Assembly (NCBI GenBank): GCA_018262505.1 | Contig: JAGSYV010000009.1 | Location: forward strand, 1-64,000 | Origin: Pseudomonadota bacterium | GTDB taxonomy: Bacteria > Pseudomonadota > Alphaproteobacteria > Rhizobiales > Pleomorphomonadaceae | Direction: 5' to 3' | Length of the DNA: 64,000 nucleotides | Shown: positions 1 through 52,528 of the stretch, one piece after another | Layout of the letters: each line of letters opens with the position of its first letter | How positions within the stretch are numbered: the stretch's first letter is position 1 | Notes under the pieces: generated by a model | What the model saw: the letters and a program-made list of their open reading frames with translations, nothing else | Told to the model about the DNA's origin: nothing | Databases searched by the model: none | Translations under genes and position numbers: made by a program

Positions 1-2781
1 GCGCAGGCCGAACTTCTCGGCGTAGAGCTTGCGCGTCGTCTCCTTCACCGCCTCGGCGCCGGCAACGAGCAGCCGCAGCGAGCGGAAGTCGTAGGGGTGG
101 GCCATGCGGCCATAGCCGGAGAGGAACGTGTCGGTGCCGAACAGCACGGTGGCGTTGGTCTGGTAGACCAGCTCCGGGATGATCCGGTAGTGCAGCGGTG
201 TCGGGTAGAGGAACACCGGCACGCCGGAGACCAGCGGCAGGATCAGCCCGGCGCTGAGGCCGAAGGAATGGAAGATCGGCAGCGCGTTGAAGGCCGTGTC
301 GGTGCGCGAGAAATCGATGCGCGCCGCCACCTGCGCCACGTTGGCGAGAATGTTGCGGTGGCTGAGCACCACGCCCTTGGGCGTTCCCTCCGAGCCCGAG
401 GTGAACAGGGTGGCCGCCGCGTCGTTCGGCCCGGCCTTCACCAGCCGGCGCGCCCAGTTGAAGACAGCGTCGAGCTTGTCGAGCCTCGTCACGCTGGCGC
501 GCAGATCCTCCAGCCAGACGATCCTGAGCTTGCCCTCGATGGCGGCGATCACCGGCTCCAGCCGCCCCTTCTCGACGAACACCCGCGAGGTGACGAATAC
601 CTTGGCCTCGCATGCCGCGCAGGCGGCCAGAATGTTGGCCGGACCAGCCGTGAAGTTGATCATCGCCGGCACGCGACCTGATGATTGCAGGCCGAGGAAG
701 GTCACGGCGCCGCCGACGGCGTTGGGCACCATCAGCGCCACCGTTTCGCCCGGCGCGGCCAGCGGCATCAGCTTGCGGCCGAGGATGCGCGCGCCCATCA
801 GCATGCGGCGATAGCTGAGCTTGCCGCCCACCGGGTCGCTCACCGCCTGGCGCCCGGCGCCATGCTGGTGGGCAGCACCGACCATCGCCTCGAAAATGGT
901 GAGGTCGGTGTCGGTGGTGCGGAACATCATGTCCGACATGATGCCGTAGAGCGCATTGCCGGCCGCCTGCCGGCGCAGCTTGCCCTTGAGATTGTCAGGC
1001 AGGGAAAGCCGCACCGGCTCGGTGATATTGACCGTCACCTTGGGGAACCAGCGGCGCTTGACCTGCAGCGAATTCAGGCGGCTGAAGACGGTGGATTCCA
1101 GGCCCGACAGGCGCACCGGCACGATCGGCGCGCCGGACTTTTCGGCGATCAGGCCGACGCCGTCATAGACCTTCATCAGCGCGCCGGTGACGGTGATCCG
1201 CCCCTCGGGGAAGATGATCAGCGTCTCGCCAGCCTTGACGGCGGCGATCAGCGAGCGGGTGGCCAGCGGCTTGCTCGGGTCGAGCGGCATGGCGCGGGTA
1301 AAGCGCAGGAAAGGCTTCACCCACCACGCCTCGGCAATGGTGTGGTCGATGGCGAACACCGGGTCGCGGTCGAGCAAGGAGACGGCGACCACCGCGTCGA
1401 GGAAGCTCGTATGGTTGAGCGCGACGATGGCGCCCTCCCCGGCCGGCGGCACGTTGTGAAGGCCGGTCACCTCCATGCGGAACACGGCGCGCAGCAGGAT
1501 GGAGACGAGGTCACTCAGCGGGTTGGTCGGCAGCGCGCGGAAGATCCACACCGCCGCGCCGAAGGCGATGAGGCCGAGCGCCACCAGCACCATCGGCACC
1601 GTGGCGCCCAGCGCCTGGGCCACCGCCACAGCACCGGCGCCGGCCACCATGAACAGCGCCGTCAACGCATTGATGGCGCCCACGACGCGGGCGCGCCGTG
1701 TCACCGGCGCCCAATGCTGGGCGGCGGCAAACGACGGCACGATGAACACGCCGCCGGCAATCGCCAGGGCGGCCAGATCGATGGCCGCGTGAATGGCCCC
1801 GGGGTGGCCGAAGAACTCGCGGAGGCTGTCGGTCGGCGTCACCGGCGCCAGGCCGGACAGCGTTGAGGCGAGATCCAGCGCCGCAAGGCCGATCATAACC
1901 GAGGCCACCGGCACCGGCAGCAGCACGATGCGGCCGGCCGACAGCCAGGCACCGAGGCCGGAGCCCACGGCGATCGACACCGCGAACACCGTGAGATAGG
2001 CCGACACCGCCGCCTCGCGGCCGCCGAGAATATCCTTGACGAAGGTCGGCATCAGCGCCATCGCCACCACGCCGAACAGCCAGAACAGGCTGACCATGAC
2101 GCCGGTGCGCCACAGCCGCGCCTCGGTCCAGAGTTCGCCGATGAGGCGCACGGTGGAGCGGGCGACATTCGGGTCGATCACCGCCTCGGGGCTGGCGGCG
2201 CCCACCTTGGGCACGTAGAGCGCGGCGATCCAGCTGCCGACGGCCAGCACCATCATGGCGACGCCGAACACCCATGGGCCGCCATGGGCGCCGGTGGCAA
2301 AACCGCCGGCATAGGTGCCGACCAGGATGGCGACGAAGGTCGCCCCTTCCACCAGCGCATTGCCGCGCGGCAGCTCGGAGGGGGCGAGCAGGTCCGGCAG
2401 GATGCCGTATTTGATCGGCCCGAACAGGGCGGAGATGACGCCGAACAACACCAGCGCCGTCATCAGCACGACGATCGACTGGAGGGCGAAACCGAGAACC
2501 GCGAGGCCGGCGATGGCGATCTCGACCAGCTTCAGCCACTGCGCCACGCGCGCCTTGTCATAACGGTCGGCCAACTGACCGCCCAACCCCGACAGGAAGA
2601 TGAACGGCAGCATCAGAATGCCGGTGGCGATCGTCACCAGCGCCTCGCCGCCAGCAACGCCCATCTGGAAGAGTATGGTGAACACCAGGGCGTTCTTCAG
2701 GAAATTGTCGTTGAAGGCCGAGAAGAACTGCACGAGGAACAGCGGCCCGAACCGGCGCTGAATGAGGAGCGGCTTGGTCAT
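1..2781 (-). CDS. aas: MFS / PlsC acyltransferase / acyl-ACP synthetase fusion (Aas-type), C-terminus beyond window
   Basis: The reading frame starts at the ATG at 2781 and stays open to the left edge, so the C-terminus is missing. Residues 1 to about 400 are a transporter of the LplT/MFS type (N-terminal FFSAFNDNFLKN). Residues about 430-640 form a PlsC-type acyltransferase, with NHTSFLD at about residue 456 and a downstream FPEGR. From about residue 660 an AMP-binding acyl synthetase begins, with TSGSEGTPKG near residue 794. Family knowledge: E. coli Aas re-acylates lysophospholipids imported by LplT; alphaproteobacteria often fuse all three. The gene is divergent from a TetR gene across paired palindromes, so its repression by that protein is likely. 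Membrane location inferred. Confidence 0.93.
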   Translation of the reverse strand, partial: MTKPLLIQRRFGPLFLVQFFSAFNDNFLKNALVFTILFQMGVAGGEALVTIATGILMLPFIFLSGLGGQLADRYDKARVAQWLKLVEIAIAGLAVLGFALQSIVVLMTALVLFGVISALFGPIKYGILPDLLAPSELPRGNALVEGATFVAILVGTYAGGFATGAHGGPWVFGVAMMVLAVGSWIAALYVPKVGAASPEAVIDPNVARSTVRLIGELWTEARLWRTGVMVSLFWLFGVVAMALMPTFVKDILGGREAAVSAYLTVFAVSIAVGSGLGAWLSAGRIVLLPVPVASVMIGLAALDLASTLSGLAPVTPTDSLREFFGHPGAIHAAIDLAALAIAGGVFIVPSFAAAQHWAPVTRRARVVGAINALTALFMVAGAGAVAVAQALGATVPMVLVALGLIAFGAAVWIFRALPTNPLSDLVSILLRAVFRMEVTGLHNVPPAGEGAIVALNHTSFLDAVVAVSLLDRDPVFAIDHTIAEAWWVKPFLRFTRAMPLDPSKPLATRSLIAAVKAGETLIIFPEGRITVTGALMKVYDGVGLIAEKSGAPIVPVRLSGLESTVFSRLNSLQVKRRWFPKVTVNITEPVRLSLPDNLKGKLRRQAAGNALYGIMSDMMFRTTDTDLTIFEAMVGAAHQHGAGRQAVSDPVGGKLSYRRMLMGARILGRKLMPLAAPGETVALMVPNAVGGAVTFLGLQSSGRVPAMINFTAGPANILAACAACEAKVFVTSRVFVEKGRLEPVIAAIEGKLRIVWLEDLRASVTRLDKLDAVFNWARRLVKAGPNDAAATLFTSGSEGTPKGVVLSHRNILANVAQVAARIDFSRTDTAFNALPIFHSFGLSAGLILPLVSGVPVFLYPTPLHYRIIPELVYQTNATVLFGTDTFLSGYGRMAHPYDFRSLRLLVAGAEAVKETTRKLYAEKFGLR

Positions 2782-2925
2782 GAGACCTCCGAGGGGAGAG
2801 GCTGAACGTCTGCGTCAGGATAAGGATGCGAAGCGCCGCTGAAAGGCAATGGCGGCGACCGAACGCCGTTGGCCACCCGCGTCGGGCAGCCACATTGCCC
2901 CTTCATCGCGCCCCGCCTCCGTGGT

Positions 2926-3004
2926 ATGAACATTGTTCATGAACCAGCTATAGCCGAGATTTGAACGGCGTTCAAGACGAAAATGAACGCCGTTCAAATC
3001 TCGG
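2926..3004. promoter_or_regulatory. Three TetR-type operators between aas and tetR
   Basis: Three 13-bp palindromes of form TGAAC-N3-GTTCA are centred near 2933, 2968 and 2990. The last two lie inside a larger perfect inverted repeat with 21-bp arms (2954-2974 and 2984-3004) and a 9-bp spacer. The centre-to-centre distances of 35 and 22 bp suggest cooperative dimers. They sit between the divergent starts at 2781 and 3024, where the TetR protein would repress both promoters. Binding is inferred from symmetry and position. Confidence 0.8.
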
Positions 3005-3023
3005 TCGACACAGGTAGACGACG

Positions 3024-3722
3024 ATGAATCCCCCCCTCTCCGACCGGCGCCCGGAAAAGCGCAAGGCCCAGCTTGTGGCGCTGACCGACGCCGCCGAACG
3101 CCGCATCGCCGAGGGCGGCGCGGCAAGCCTTCGGGCGCGCGATCTCGCCGCCGACATCGGCATCGCGCTTGGCGGCCTCTACAACATCGTCGCCGATCTC
3201 GACGAACTCCTGCTTCGCGTCTCCTCGCGCACCCTCGGCCGCCTCGGCGAGGCGCTCACCGCCGCCTCAGGCGCGCTGCCGCTTCAAACCAAGGACGACG
3301 CGGTGAACCGCCTCGTCGCCATCGCTCATGCCTACCTGCATTTCGCGCGGGACAACCTCCTGTTATGGCGCACCCTGTTCGAGCTGCATTTTGCCGACGA
3401 CATGGTGCTCCCCGCCTGGGCCGCCGACGACCAGCTCCGCCTGTTCCGCCACGTCGCCGAACCGCTCGCCCTCCTCCTCCCCGACATGGACGAGCCCCGC
3501 CAGACCCTCGCCGCCCGCACCCTGTTCGCCGCCGTCCACGGCATCGTCACCTTGGGGCTGGAGGAAAGGCTGGTGGCGGTGCCGCTGACGGCGCTGGAGG
3601 CGCAGATCGAATGGCTGGTAAGGGCGACGTGCCGGGGGCTGAGGGAGCAAGAGAGCCCGATACCACCCGCTCAATTTCTCGTCCTGGGATCCTCTGCCTG
3701 CGCAGAGGAAGACAACCTATAA
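3024..3722 (+). CDS. TetR/AcrR family transcriptional regulator
   Basis: A 232-residue protein with the N-terminal TetR helix-turn-helix at about residues 25-65 (ASLRARDLAADIGIALGGLY) and a helical ligand-binding C-terminal domain. It is divergent from the Aas-type gene and almost certainly controls it through the palindromes between the two starts. Ligand unknown; an acyl-CoA or lysolipid signal would fit the target but is a guess. The last 15 or so residues (SSACAEEDN) are encoded by an intergenic palindromic repeat that begins at about 3676, so the native C-terminus has probably been replaced by repeat sequence. Confidence 0.9.
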   Translation: MNPPLSDRRPEKRKAQLVALTDAAERRIAEGGAASLRARDLAADIGIALGGLYNIVADLDELLLRVSSRTLGRLGEALTAASGALPLQTKDDAVNRLVAIAHAYLHFARDNLLLWRTLFELHFADDMVLPAWAADDQLRLFRHVAEPLALLLPDMDEPRQTLAARTLFAAVHGIVTLGLEERLVAVPLTALEAQIEWLVRATCRGLREQESPIPPAQFLVLGSSACAEEDNL

Positions 3723-9154: not shown

Positions 9155-9330
9155 CCACCCGTCCCGAGGTCCTCGCTTTCGCAAGGATGACAGATTTATA
9201 TATATATGGAACAAATGGATAACGAAGAGCCCCTCCGTATCGAGCTGCCGCCTCCATCTATATCAGGCTGTCATCCTTGCGAAAGCGAGGACCTCGGGCA
9301 GAACGGGACAACCGGCCGATATGGATCTCC
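9155..9330. repeat. Family A palindromic repeat, copy A2 (paired arms)
   Basis: A 31-bp perfect inverted repeat, arms at about 9160-9190 and 9268-9300, each arm containing CCTCGC-TTTC-GCAAGG. An A/T-rich centre (TATATATATATGG) separates them, and the tail is CGGCCGATATGGATCTCCC. It lies between the two gp14-like genes. Confidence 0.8.
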
Positions 9331-49958: not shown

Positions 49959-50936
49959 CTAAGCGTGGACCATCCGCTGCTCATGTAACCCGAGCTTGTT
50001 CAGCTTCCGATGCAGCGTGGCGCGGCTGATGCCGAGAAACTCGGCGGCATGCGACACGTTGCCGTGCGCCCGCGCCAAGGCGCGCTGGACCACCGCGCGC
50101 TCGCCGGCGGCGAGGTCGTCGGCCTCGCGCTCTCGGGCGATTAGATCGCCGATCGGGGTGCGCCCGTTGATGTCCGCCGCGCTTAGCTCGAGAAGCTGCC
50201 GGGCGGCGCGGGTGGCACCGACGATCAGGTCGTGCCCGTCGACGGCCACCAGCGCATCGGCCCGTCCCTCCGGCGAAGGCGCCAGAACGATGCGGCTGCC
50301 GGGGAAGGCGCGGCGAAACAGATCGCACTCGATGCGCCGCGCCGCGTCGATCACCGACTGGGCGATCAGCGTCAGGAAGCCCTCGGTCAGATCGGCCCGG
50401 CAGGAGGAGACGTCGATCACCGCCGCCAGTTGGCCGTCGGCATCGTGGATCGGCGAGGAGGTACAGCTCAGGAGAGCATTGCGGCTGAAGAAATGCTGGT
50501 CGCGGTGGATGGTCACCGGGCGTTGCTCGGCGATCGCGGTGCCGATGCCATTGGTGCCCTGGCTGCCTTCGCTCCACTGGGTGCCGATCCACAGGCCCCA
50601 TTGGCTGAAGGTGGCATCGTCGCCGGCCGCGCCCCGCCTTTCGAGCGGCACGCCATTGCGATCGGCCAGCAGCACGCAGCAGCCGACGCCGCCGACGGCG
50701 GCATGCAGGCGGTCCATGGCACTGATCGCACAGGCGATCAACGGCTCCAGCGGCTGCCGTGCCAGCGTGATCTCCTCATCAGTCAACCGCCAGACGGGCG
50801 GGCGCGGCGCCGTCGGATCGAGCTTGTGCAGCTCCTGCGACCGGTGCCATGAGGCGGCAACAACCGAGCGGACCGCTCCGCCGGCGGCCAGCGTGTCCCG
50901 GATGTGCCGTGCGTGAAGTTCATCTGACCTGTCCAC
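49959..50936 (-). CDS. AcoR-like regulator with GAF and Fis HTH domains, no AAA+ domain
   Basis: 325 residues, GTG start at 50936 behind GAGGAGG. The AcoR-type N-terminus (RSVVAASWHRSQELHKLDP), a GAF domain around GVGCCVLLADRNGVPLERRG and WIGTQWSEGSQGTNGIGTAI, then the C-terminal Fis helix-turn-helix AAEFLGISRATLHRKLNKLG. Full AcoR proteins are ~650 residues with a sigma-54-activating ATPase between these parts; here it is absent. It probably controls the downstream aldehyde dehydrogenase. Confidence 0.9.
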   Translation of the reverse strand: MDRSDELHARHIRDTLAAGGAVRSVVAASWHRSQELHKLDPTAPRPPVWRLTDEEITLARQPLEPLIACAISAMDRLHAAVGGVGCCVLLADRNGVPLERRGAAGDDATFSQWGLWIGTQWSEGSQGTNGIGTAIAEQRPVTIHRDQHFFSRNALLSCTSSPIHDADGQLAAVIDVSSCRADLTEGFLTLIAQSVIDAARRIECDLFRRAFPGSRIVLAPSPEGRADALVAVDGHDLIVGATRAARQLLELSAADINGRTPIGDLIAREREADDLAAGERAVVQRALARAHGNVSHAAEFLGISRATLHRKLNKLGLHEQRMVHA

Positions 50937-51229
50937 GCTTTTCCTCCTCGAGAAGCGTTGGCCACGACGTTCTGAAATTCCTCCTGCCCTAATCCGTCCT
51001 CCGCGAAGTCACATGGGGCACCAGCCCGGAGCGCCGGTCCGGTTCCGTCAGACCAAACGGCGCCCTACGGGTAAATCCCGATAGCCGGACACTTCATAAT
51101 CTTGTTTTCGGAAGTAGACAATTCGCCCAAAGGACTCGGGCAAGACCACGGCGGCAACGTCTGGATGCACTGAAACCGACCGTTGACATCGGGCTTCACG
51201 CACAGATGGTGCCGGATACAACCCTCATC
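50937..51229. other. Intergenic region, no gene seen
   Basis: Leader of the AcoR-like gene and beyond. No convincing frame or hairpin up to the family A array at 51232. Confidence 0.5.
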
Positions 51230-51231
51230 GC

Positions 51232-51450
51232 CTTCTCGTCCCGAGGTCCTCGCTTTCGCAAGGATGACAGTATTATATACAGGAAACAGGCGGATAGCGC
51301 TTGCGCACTCTCGCAGGTCGTCGCTCGCGGTTCTGGTGCTGCCGCAGGGGAGCTAGCGAGCGGCTAACCGTTTTCCCCTCTATATAGGACTGTCATCCTT
51401 GCGAAAGCGAGGACCTCAGGACGAGAAGACGCTTCGGCCCATATCAGGCT
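51232..51450. repeat. Family A palindromic repeat, copy A13 (paired arms)
   Basis: The left arm CCCGAGGTCCTCGCTTTCGC (51240) and right arm ATCCTTGCGAAAGCGAGGAC (51395) frame about 120 bp that contain TTTCC, GCGGATAGCGCTTGCGCAC, the counterpart of the MITE target at 51783. Confidence 0.78.
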
Positions 51451-51484
51451 CCCTCGGGCGTTTGAAAGCCCGATAGCTCCCCCT

Positions 51485-51545
51485 CGCCCCATCCTGCCCG
51501 AGGTCCTCGCTTTCGCAAGGATGACAGCATGATATAAAGGGGGAA
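51485..51545. repeat. Family A repeat, half copy A14
   Basis: CCATCCTGCCCGAGGTCCTC then GCTTTCGCAAGGATGACAGC: one left arm, partner of A15 with the MITE inserted between. Confidence 0.75.
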
Positions 51546-51629
51546 AACCGGTTAGCCGCTCGCAAGCTCCTCGCTAGCTCCCCTGCGGCACCACCGGAAC
51601 CGCGAGAGACGATCTATGAAGGTGCGCAA

Positions 51630-51782
51630 GTACCCGGGGCAAATTCCCGGGCAAGCTTGAAAAACTCCGCTTGGAAGACGGTGGCAATGCCCACCAAGTA
51701 CTTGAAATCGCTTAATCTCGCACATGCGACATGCGAGATCGGAAATATTGCACCTGCTTGCCCGGGAATTTGCCCCGGGTAC
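51630..51782. mobile_element. MITE-like element, 153 bp, 27-bp perfect terminal inverted repeats
   Basis: Arms at 51630-51656 (GTACCCGGGGCAAATTCCCG..) and 51756-51782 are exact complements over 27 bp. GGTGCGCAA occurs immediately outside both ends (51621-51629 and 51783-51791), a 9-bp target duplication. The centre has no coding capacity but contains ATCTCGCA..TGCGAGAT. A related empty site, in opposite orientation, is present at about 51290-51312. Confidence 0.85.
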
Positions 51783-51814
51783 GGTGCGCAAGCGCTATCC
51801 GCCTGTTTCCTATA

Positions 51815-51885
51815 TATAATTCTCCTGTCATCCTTGCGAAAGCGAGGACCTCAGGCAGAAAGGGCGAGCGGCCCATATAGATCTC
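51815..51885. repeat. Family A repeat, half copy A15
   Basis: CTATATATAATTCTCCTGTC then ATCCTTGCGAAAGCGAGGAC, CTCAGGCAGAAAGGGCGAGC and CCATATAGATCTCC. With A14 it formed one paired element before the MITE entered. Confidence 0.78.
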
Positions 51886-51904
51886 CACCCGCCCAATCCC
51901 CATC

Positions 51905-52528
51905 TCACCGGCTGAACAGCAGCCGTCCCGCCAGCGCCAGCAAGAGCGCCCCCATCACCGCATCCATCCACCGCCTTGCCCGCGCGTATCCCCGCTGCAC
52001 CGCCGGCAGGGCGAACAGCAGGACCACCGCGCTCCACCAGGCCACCGACACCAGCACCGCCGTCGCGATGGCGCCGGCGAACACCGCCGTCGGCGCGCTG
52101 GCCGGGATCACCACACCGAACAAGCTCGCATAGTAGGCGGCCACCTTGGGGTTGGAGATGGTGGTGAGGAAGCCGGCGCGCAGCGCCCTTCCCCCACTCA
52201 GCACTGGCCGCGACGTGTCAAACCCCACCGCCTTGCCCTGGAAAACGCCCTTGAGCAGCCCCCAGGCGAGCCAGCTGAGATAGGCGGCGCCGACCAGCTT
52301 CAGCCCGAAATACAGCCACCCGAAGCGGGCGATGACGCCGCCGAGGCCGGCCGCCGTCACGCTCGACCAGGTGAGCGTTGCCATCACCACGCCGGCCACC
52401 ACCAGGAAGCCCGAGCGCCTGCTACCGGCCACCGACTGGCTCATCACCACCATCAGCGTCGGGCCAGGGCTGGCGACGGCCAAGAGGTGGATCACCGCGA
52501 TGGTGGCGAACAGGGCGAGCGTGCTCAT
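51905..52528 (-). CDS. LysE family translocator
   Basis: 207 residues from ATG 52528, which overlaps the TGA of the SRPBCC gene (ATGA). About six helices; LysE marks LLAVASPGPTLMVVMSQSVA near residue 16 and TTISNPKVAAYYASLFGVV near 115. Exports amino acids or similar compounds. Second gene of a two-gene operon. Confidence 0.9.
   Translation of the reverse strand: MSTLALFATIAVIHLLAVASPGPTLMVVMSQSVAGSRRSGFLVVAGVVMATLTWSSVTAAGLGGVIARFGWLYFGLKLVGAAYLSWLAWGLLKGVFQGKAVGFDTSRPVLSGGRALRAGFLTTISNPKVAAYYASLFGVVIPASAPTAVFAGAIATAVLVSVAWWSAVVLLFALPAVQRGYARARRWMDAVMGALLLALAGRLLFSR

Follow-up and report, generated by a model that had tools for sequence, protein, structure and literature searches.

MITEPye1 of Paracoccus yeei is, in the available part of its description, a short element that lacks a transposase gene; it has inverted-repeat, IS-like ends flanked by direct duplications and a predicted long stem-loop, and its authors tied it to the IS1182 family (PMC11578231). 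According to the portion of the Frankia study considered here, the IS66 elements of that genus produce 8-bp duplications and have ends beginning GTAAGCG (PMC11946415). ISDge4, a member of the ISBst12 group of IS66, is reported in the excerpts of its source to have one transposase gene encoding a protein of 449 aa, an 8-bp duplication and one end starting GTAA (PMC12898284). REP-inserting IS elements were described by Tobes and Pareja (2006) as inserting recurrently at one exact position of a palindrome, with 100% of the copies doing so in the strict class; that paper names IS3, IS110, IS4, IS256 and IS5 as REP-targeting families, and the term IS66 is absent from its text (PMC1525189).

The element analyzed in this study lies in a 64,000-nucleotide stretch of DNA (the whole of which is hereafter called the window) from a draft assembly of 257 contigs with 89.85% completeness. 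It shares all of the above traits of MITEPye1, including the predicted long stem-loop, but its ends point to an IS66-like element rather than to the IS1182 family. The relatives of its presumed helper carry a DDE_Tnp_IS66 domain and resemble ISDge4 in having one transposase gene and, in the nearest ones, ends that start GTAA; they differ from it in the length of the transposase (543-551 versus 449 aa) and in end sequence, and the 9-bp duplications found here are unlike the 8-bp duplications of both ISDge4 and the Frankia elements. As with the REP-inserting elements, insertion recurs at one exact position of a palindrome, whereas this was the case for 6 of 17 insertions and not for every copy, and a MITE is included among them. 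We are confident in the overall reading that this is a gene-free MITE moved in trans by a resident IS66-like helper, with a 9-bp stagger and often into the tail of a REP-like repeat. This reading assigns an IS66-like helper to a bacterial MITE, an attribution that does not occur in the examined passages of the literature on IS66 and MITEs, and it offers a concrete case of a transposase possibly choosing a dispersed palindrome, with occupied and empty repeat copies in one genome. The features of the locus are as follows.

51630-51782: MITE-like element, whole, 153 bp
51621-51629, unstranded: left copy of the 9-bp target-site duplication, GGTGCGCAA, recurring at 51783-51791
51630-51656, + strand: left terminal inverted repeat, GTACCCGGGGCAAATTCCCGGGCAAGC, 27 nt
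51657-51755, + strand: interior of the element, 99 nt, without a contained ORF
51756-51782, - strand: right terminal inverted repeat, the perfect complement of the left arm in the window copy
51783-51791, unstranded: right copy of the 9-bp target-site duplication, GGTGCGCAA
51289-51308, - strand: inverted target paralogue without the element (empty site), recognized by its complementarity to the flanks of the occupied site
51827-51851, + strand: REP-like unit (family A), with the element inserted in its 5' tail
51244-51268, - strand: REP-like unit beside the empty site
51392-51416, + strand: REP-like unit of the cluster at 51244-51851
51501-51525, - strand: REP-like unit of the cluster at 51244-51851

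The initial annotation had described perfect 27-bp terminal inverted repeats, a 9-bp target duplication, an absence of coding capacity and a location inside a family A repeat, and each of these was borne out. The arms are 100% complementary over 27 nt and 99 nt apart, GGTGCGCAA stands on both sides, and the element sits in the 5' tail of a REP-like unit. Seven ORFs of at least 20 aa touch the element, all of which extend beyond one of its ends, so that none is contained within the 153 bp. Allowing up to 3 mismatches, the 27-bp arm occurs just twice in the 64-kb window and was found zero times in 100 shuffles. A short central palindrome in the interior (ATCTCGCA...TGCGAGAT) varies from copy to copy. 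Being short, bounded by inverted repeats and free of a transposase gene, and having dispersed copies, target-site duplications and ends in common with a longer element as described below, the window element is a genuine MITE.

Evidence of insertion came from a paralogue in the window and from orthologous loci in related genomes. Positions 51269-51308 are 95% complementary to 51784-51823, and 51300-51365 are 85% complementary to 51565-51630; the two stretches jointly cover the insertion point in a paralogue without the element, and the inverted empty site previously suspected nearby is therefore real. At the window locus, two congeners (G010 and G001) aligned across both flanks, and both lacked the element along with 533-542 bp of the repeat cluster around it; a further three (G012, G002 and G011) aligned on one side only. 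Presence of the same 153 bp in all strains, which the initial annotation had named as evidence against its own interpretation, was thus not observed. We also compared the copy on contig C89, using as the query both of its flanks joined with one copy of the duplication removed. None of the five congeners that aligned at the orthologous locus had the element: the alignment was gap-free in G010, contained one gapped base per side in G012 and two per side in G003, and had 4-6 gapped bases close to the joint in G005 and G013. The flank of one copy of the longer element (C6) had no orthologue in the congeners that could reveal an empty site.

In the source genome, where a search for copies had been proposed earlier as a check, the 153-bp element aligned at 13 dispersed places over 54-153 bp, three of which are complete (the window, C142 and C89). 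A different 9-bp duplication flanks each complete copy (GGTGCGCAA, AGCGAAAAG and TTTCGGATG). A shortened copy on C10 is also flanked by a 9-bp duplication, CTTGCCGAT, and the copy on C181 has a duplication of 8 bp rather than 9. Of the 10 incomplete places, the one on C44 retains 54 bp, and the other nine break off after approximately 96-103 bp of the element, in three cases where the contig ends. Because contigs entering the longer element stop at a similar distance (97-99 bp), these breaks look like assembly limits and are probably artefacts; broken copies as a biological class were therefore set aside. The initial annotation had also dated the move as recent from the perfect arms. This argument is weak, since all seven of the other right arms of sufficient length for comparison share two differences from the window copy (93% matches), and arm perfection is thus no clock for insertion.

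Outside the source genome, the range of the MITE was narrow. Matches were found in four of 60 genomes sampled from the own genome, genus, family and order, all belonging to this genus; two further species have related copies, and the fourth matching genome (G010) contains a single 27-bp match only. When as many as 3 mismatches were allowed, the first 23 bases of the arm were detected in three of the 397 genomes sampled from the order, again all from one genus, and a reversed control pattern gave one match overall. One copy in Pleomorphomonas sp. NRK KF1 is 146 bp long, with arms identical over 24 bases and the duplication GGGTCACTT, bringing the copies with a 9-bp duplication to the three complete ones, the shortened one and this one. 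An 8-9 bp duplication was absent from the second NRK KF1 copy and from the P. carboxyditropha (SVCO-16) copies at the 11 loci examined. Nothing similar to the 153-bp element was present in the plasmid and phage collections, and an exact scan of the species collection with GTACCNGGGGNAAATTNCNGGGCG, in which records of the own genome may be omitted, gave no match. At five P. carboxyditropha loci (L083-L086 and L088), several MITE arms lie within a few hundred bases of one another near palindromic repeat units, and some of the arm pairs there are just 64-65 bp end to end.

A partner transposon with the same ends had been predicted, and such an element exists in the source genome, with its middle unassembled. 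Seven contigs stop inside a longer element, hereafter the helper, whose ends are identical to those of the MITE at 22 of 24 bases at each end; the autonomy of this element is presumed. C6, C82 and C134 terminate in GTACCCGGGGCAAATTTCCGGGCG..., and C138, C247, C31 and C115 terminate in GTACCTGGGGCAAATTCCCGGGCG..., the C247 end being located 14 kb past the window. Identical 9-bp duplications (TTTGGAAAT, GGCGCCCGT and AACGGTCTG) join six of these ends into three pairs (C6/C138, C82/C31 and C134/C115), and the C247 end has no partner; the four contig ends on one side indicate at least four copies. The helper ends begin GTACCC and GTACCT, and the end common to the helper and the MITE is GTACCYGGGGCAAATTYCCGGGC. 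Both begin GTAC versus GTAA in the nearest relatives among the matches listed, and a GTAC start also occurs in more distant relatives. In the own genome, one 99-nt helper end matched just its three known contig ends, and the other matched, besides its four known ends, a diverged end on C95; no contig with the helper middle was found in the assembly. The MITE interior beyond the arms matched neither helper end, indicating that simple deletion from the 99 nt known at either end of the helper did not produce the MITE. The diverged end on C95 (9799-9896; L082 1104-1896) abuts a short ORF that looks integrase-like by eye, beside a tRNA-Thr(GGT), as though insertion of the element had interrupted an island integrase. 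This ORF was considered as the helper gene and dropped, since relatives with a transposase account for the end.

The two ends of the helper contain what appear to be the two ends of a transposase gene. A GTG start lies at base 67 from one end (63-69 in seven relatives), and the stop codon begins 30 bp from the opposite end; both positions agree with those of the relatives. Of the C-terminal 23 residues, 15 matched those at the end of a Sphingobium transposase, with none of 20,000 shuffles as good. Across seven such comparisons, none of the 20,000 shuffles was as good in three and two were in one, and the remaining three were at chance level (1,683 to 3,136 of 20,000 shuffles). No transposase gene was detected in any of the seven members searched of the own assembly and genus, with both positive controls detected, one of them a genome with five identical copies; a further search gave 0 of 14. 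At a threshold of E 1e-10, a profile built from the seven transposases matched one of 150 genomes sampled from the order and not the own genome, showing that the transposase family is rare in that sample. The C-terminal peptide alone had no match among the plasmids. Nine stretches of P. carboxyditropha searched for arms contained no pair spaced by the length of a transposase gene, and the ORFs listed for four of them included none taken for a transposase.

The relatives were found through the helper ends. A plasmid search with one end retrieved a 1701-bp Mesorhizobium element with the duplication CTGTAGCTC and a broken transposase gene, and a looser scan of the species collection with GTAMCNGGGGCARATTNCCGGG gave at least 104 stretches, 80 of which were examined. 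Among the matches listed, the intact relatives are single-gene alphaproteobacterial elements of approximately 1.7 kb from Sphingobium, Mesorhizobium and others, five of which encode an intact transposase in one sense ORF each. All five scored above the curated cut-off of Pfam DDE_Tnp_IS66 (65-71 versus 23.1 bits) and below that of NCBIfam NF033517 (IS66; 110-120 versus 180 bits). Candidate DDE residues, by our own assignment, are invariant in seven proteins within the motifs VDDT, SDxAGQF and SEND. The IS66 domain and the single gene typical of the ISBst12 group are traits of the relatives, the helper itself being known from its gene ends. Variant forms were also seen among these stretches. 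Two Mesorhizobium elements (L160 5430-7155 and L123 4001-5701) have a transposase split into two overlapping frames, and their relative L205 is intact. A stretch of Mesorhizobium norvegicum (L185 5100-5884) has 785 bp between these ends with a partial transposase gene and is apparently an internal-deletion form intermediate between helper and MITE. In Paracoccus sp. WLY502 (L175 1451-3231), nearly identical ends enclose 1781 bp; the longest ORF there (464 aa) does not resemble the transposase, suggesting a passenger element or two separate ends.

The length of the duplication was 9 bp at all three paired helper sites. Four of five identical Sphingobium copies in one genome also have perfect 9-bp duplications; the fifth (L282) has one recognizable end only and was left unscored. 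In a set of ten relatives, the duplication was 9 bp in three (L123, L132 and L135), 8 bp in L129 and 7 bp in L128, and no convincing duplication was found in the other five (L126, L127, L130, L131 and L134). Among the 80 examined loci, 16 had an arm mate, and these showed 9 bp in four (L160, L162, L205 and one Pleomorphomonas MITE, L162 being one of the Sphingobium copies) and 0-8 bp in the other 12, with L184 and L177 as the 8- or 7-bp exceptions. Most near relatives among the matches listed have ends of GTAACC or GTAACT; GTAAGCG occurs at one end each of L162 and L128 and is not the end of the helper or of most near relatives. Because the helper and the four Sphingobium copies have 9-bp rather than the reported 8-bp duplications, and because the transposases of the relatives fall short of the NCBIfam IS66 cut-off, we regard the helper as IS66-like rather than as a standard IS66 member; the likely helper of the MITE is thus IS66-like but not a textbook IS66.

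The shared ends, the shared duplication length and the shared landing site together suggest mobilization in trans. The helper would be a single-gene element of approximately 1.7 kb, as judged from its relatives, whose transposase may act on the MITE through the near-identical ends and cut the target with a 9-bp stagger, leaving the 9-bp duplication. It is conceivable that another, unseen transposase moves the MITE and that its ends are shared with the helper by coincidence, as the gene is seen at its two ends and GTAC starts extend to more distant relatives. We regard this as improbable: the match of 22 in 24 bases goes along with 9-bp duplications and with one helper copy at the same REP position as the MITE, and ends within 3 mismatches are confined to three species of the genus within the sample of 397 genomes from the order.

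Both the helper and the MITE meet at a REP-like palindrome. Family A is a dispersed palindrome of the form GTCATCC-stem-GGACCTC, of which the 78.5-kb contig contains 18 units; besides the four units of the cluster, 14 lie elsewhere (for example at 9191, 39490, 55369 and 61511), often in head-to-head pairs. The stem sequence differs between copies and species, and most stems are still paired, apparently by compensation, as far as pairing can be judged by eye. At the shared insertion base, the nine flanking bases are followed by three others (GCG in the window copy, after the duplication) and then CTA...GTCATCC. Five MITE copies (the window, C142, C25, C243 and the start of C181) and the helper copy C82 are inserted at this exact base of the tail. 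This corresponds to six of 30 element edges, or six of 17 insertions, against an expectation of 0.0036 from all contig positions or 0.036 if only one tenth of the positions were available; the test was devised after the flanks had been inspected, and its probability is descriptive. The other 24 edges lie away from the preferred position. With a slightly looser pattern, and with element edges extrapolated from alignments, four of 13 copies in two congeners had the exact offset (L028, L029, L037 and L045; one of two in NRK KF1 and three of 11 in P. carboxyditropha), six had other offsets (1, 8, 10, 11, 13 and 14) and three had no match. These congener copies are closer to an independent test than those of the own genome. 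The NRK KF1 copy with the exact offset sits between 22-bp perfect stems.

This recurrence, together with the position of the P. carboxyditropha copies beside or between repeat units at loci devoid of an 8-9 bp duplication, would also fit a composite in which the MITE is part of a family A unit, the two spread together and the duplication at the ends is incidental. Slightly less probable still than an unseen transposase, such a composite is difficult to reconcile with the C89 and C10 copies, which lie away from repeats and have 9-bp duplications, or with the absence of the former from its locus in five congeners. Moreover, the REP-sited copies are flanked by differing 9-mers and occur in both orientations relative to the repeat (two of five reversed), which is unexpected under copying of a unit, and REP copies with the same tail and no element are present. 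That the 153 bp are a structural RNA or regulatory hairpin and not a mobile element is very improbable: the element folds as an RNA strand at -92.2 kcal/mol versus a shuffle mean of -54.35, yet the fold is chiefly pairing between the two arms, no Rfam family reached its cut-off and no promoter-like or terminator-like site was found across 50900-52000, and the signs of a mobile element are complete.

Under mobilization in trans by the helper, both elements would often insert in this genus at a fixed base of the REP-like tail, and the transposase rather than the host would select the repeat, recognizing it by sequence or by its hairpin. No stem spanned the insertion in eight elements lying outside the genus or away from its repeats, nor in four identical Sphingobium copies, suggesting that the REP preference may be particular to this genus. 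The chances seem to us about even that, in Pleomorphomonas, a lineage of IS66-like transposases has come to target one exact position of a REP-like palindrome that occurs throughout the genus, and that the MITE exploits this targeting. If so, the MITE would multiply in harmless intergenic sites, and the class of REP-targeting IS elements would gain an IS66-type member. Other short elements of 124-157 bp with these ends and no ORF of 120 aa were observed in Paracoccus gahaiensis (L184 4111-4234), an Acetobacteraceae MAG (L178 1879-2035) and a Hyphomicrobiales MAG (L177 4182-4327), and these are apparently additional MITEs of IS66-like helpers.
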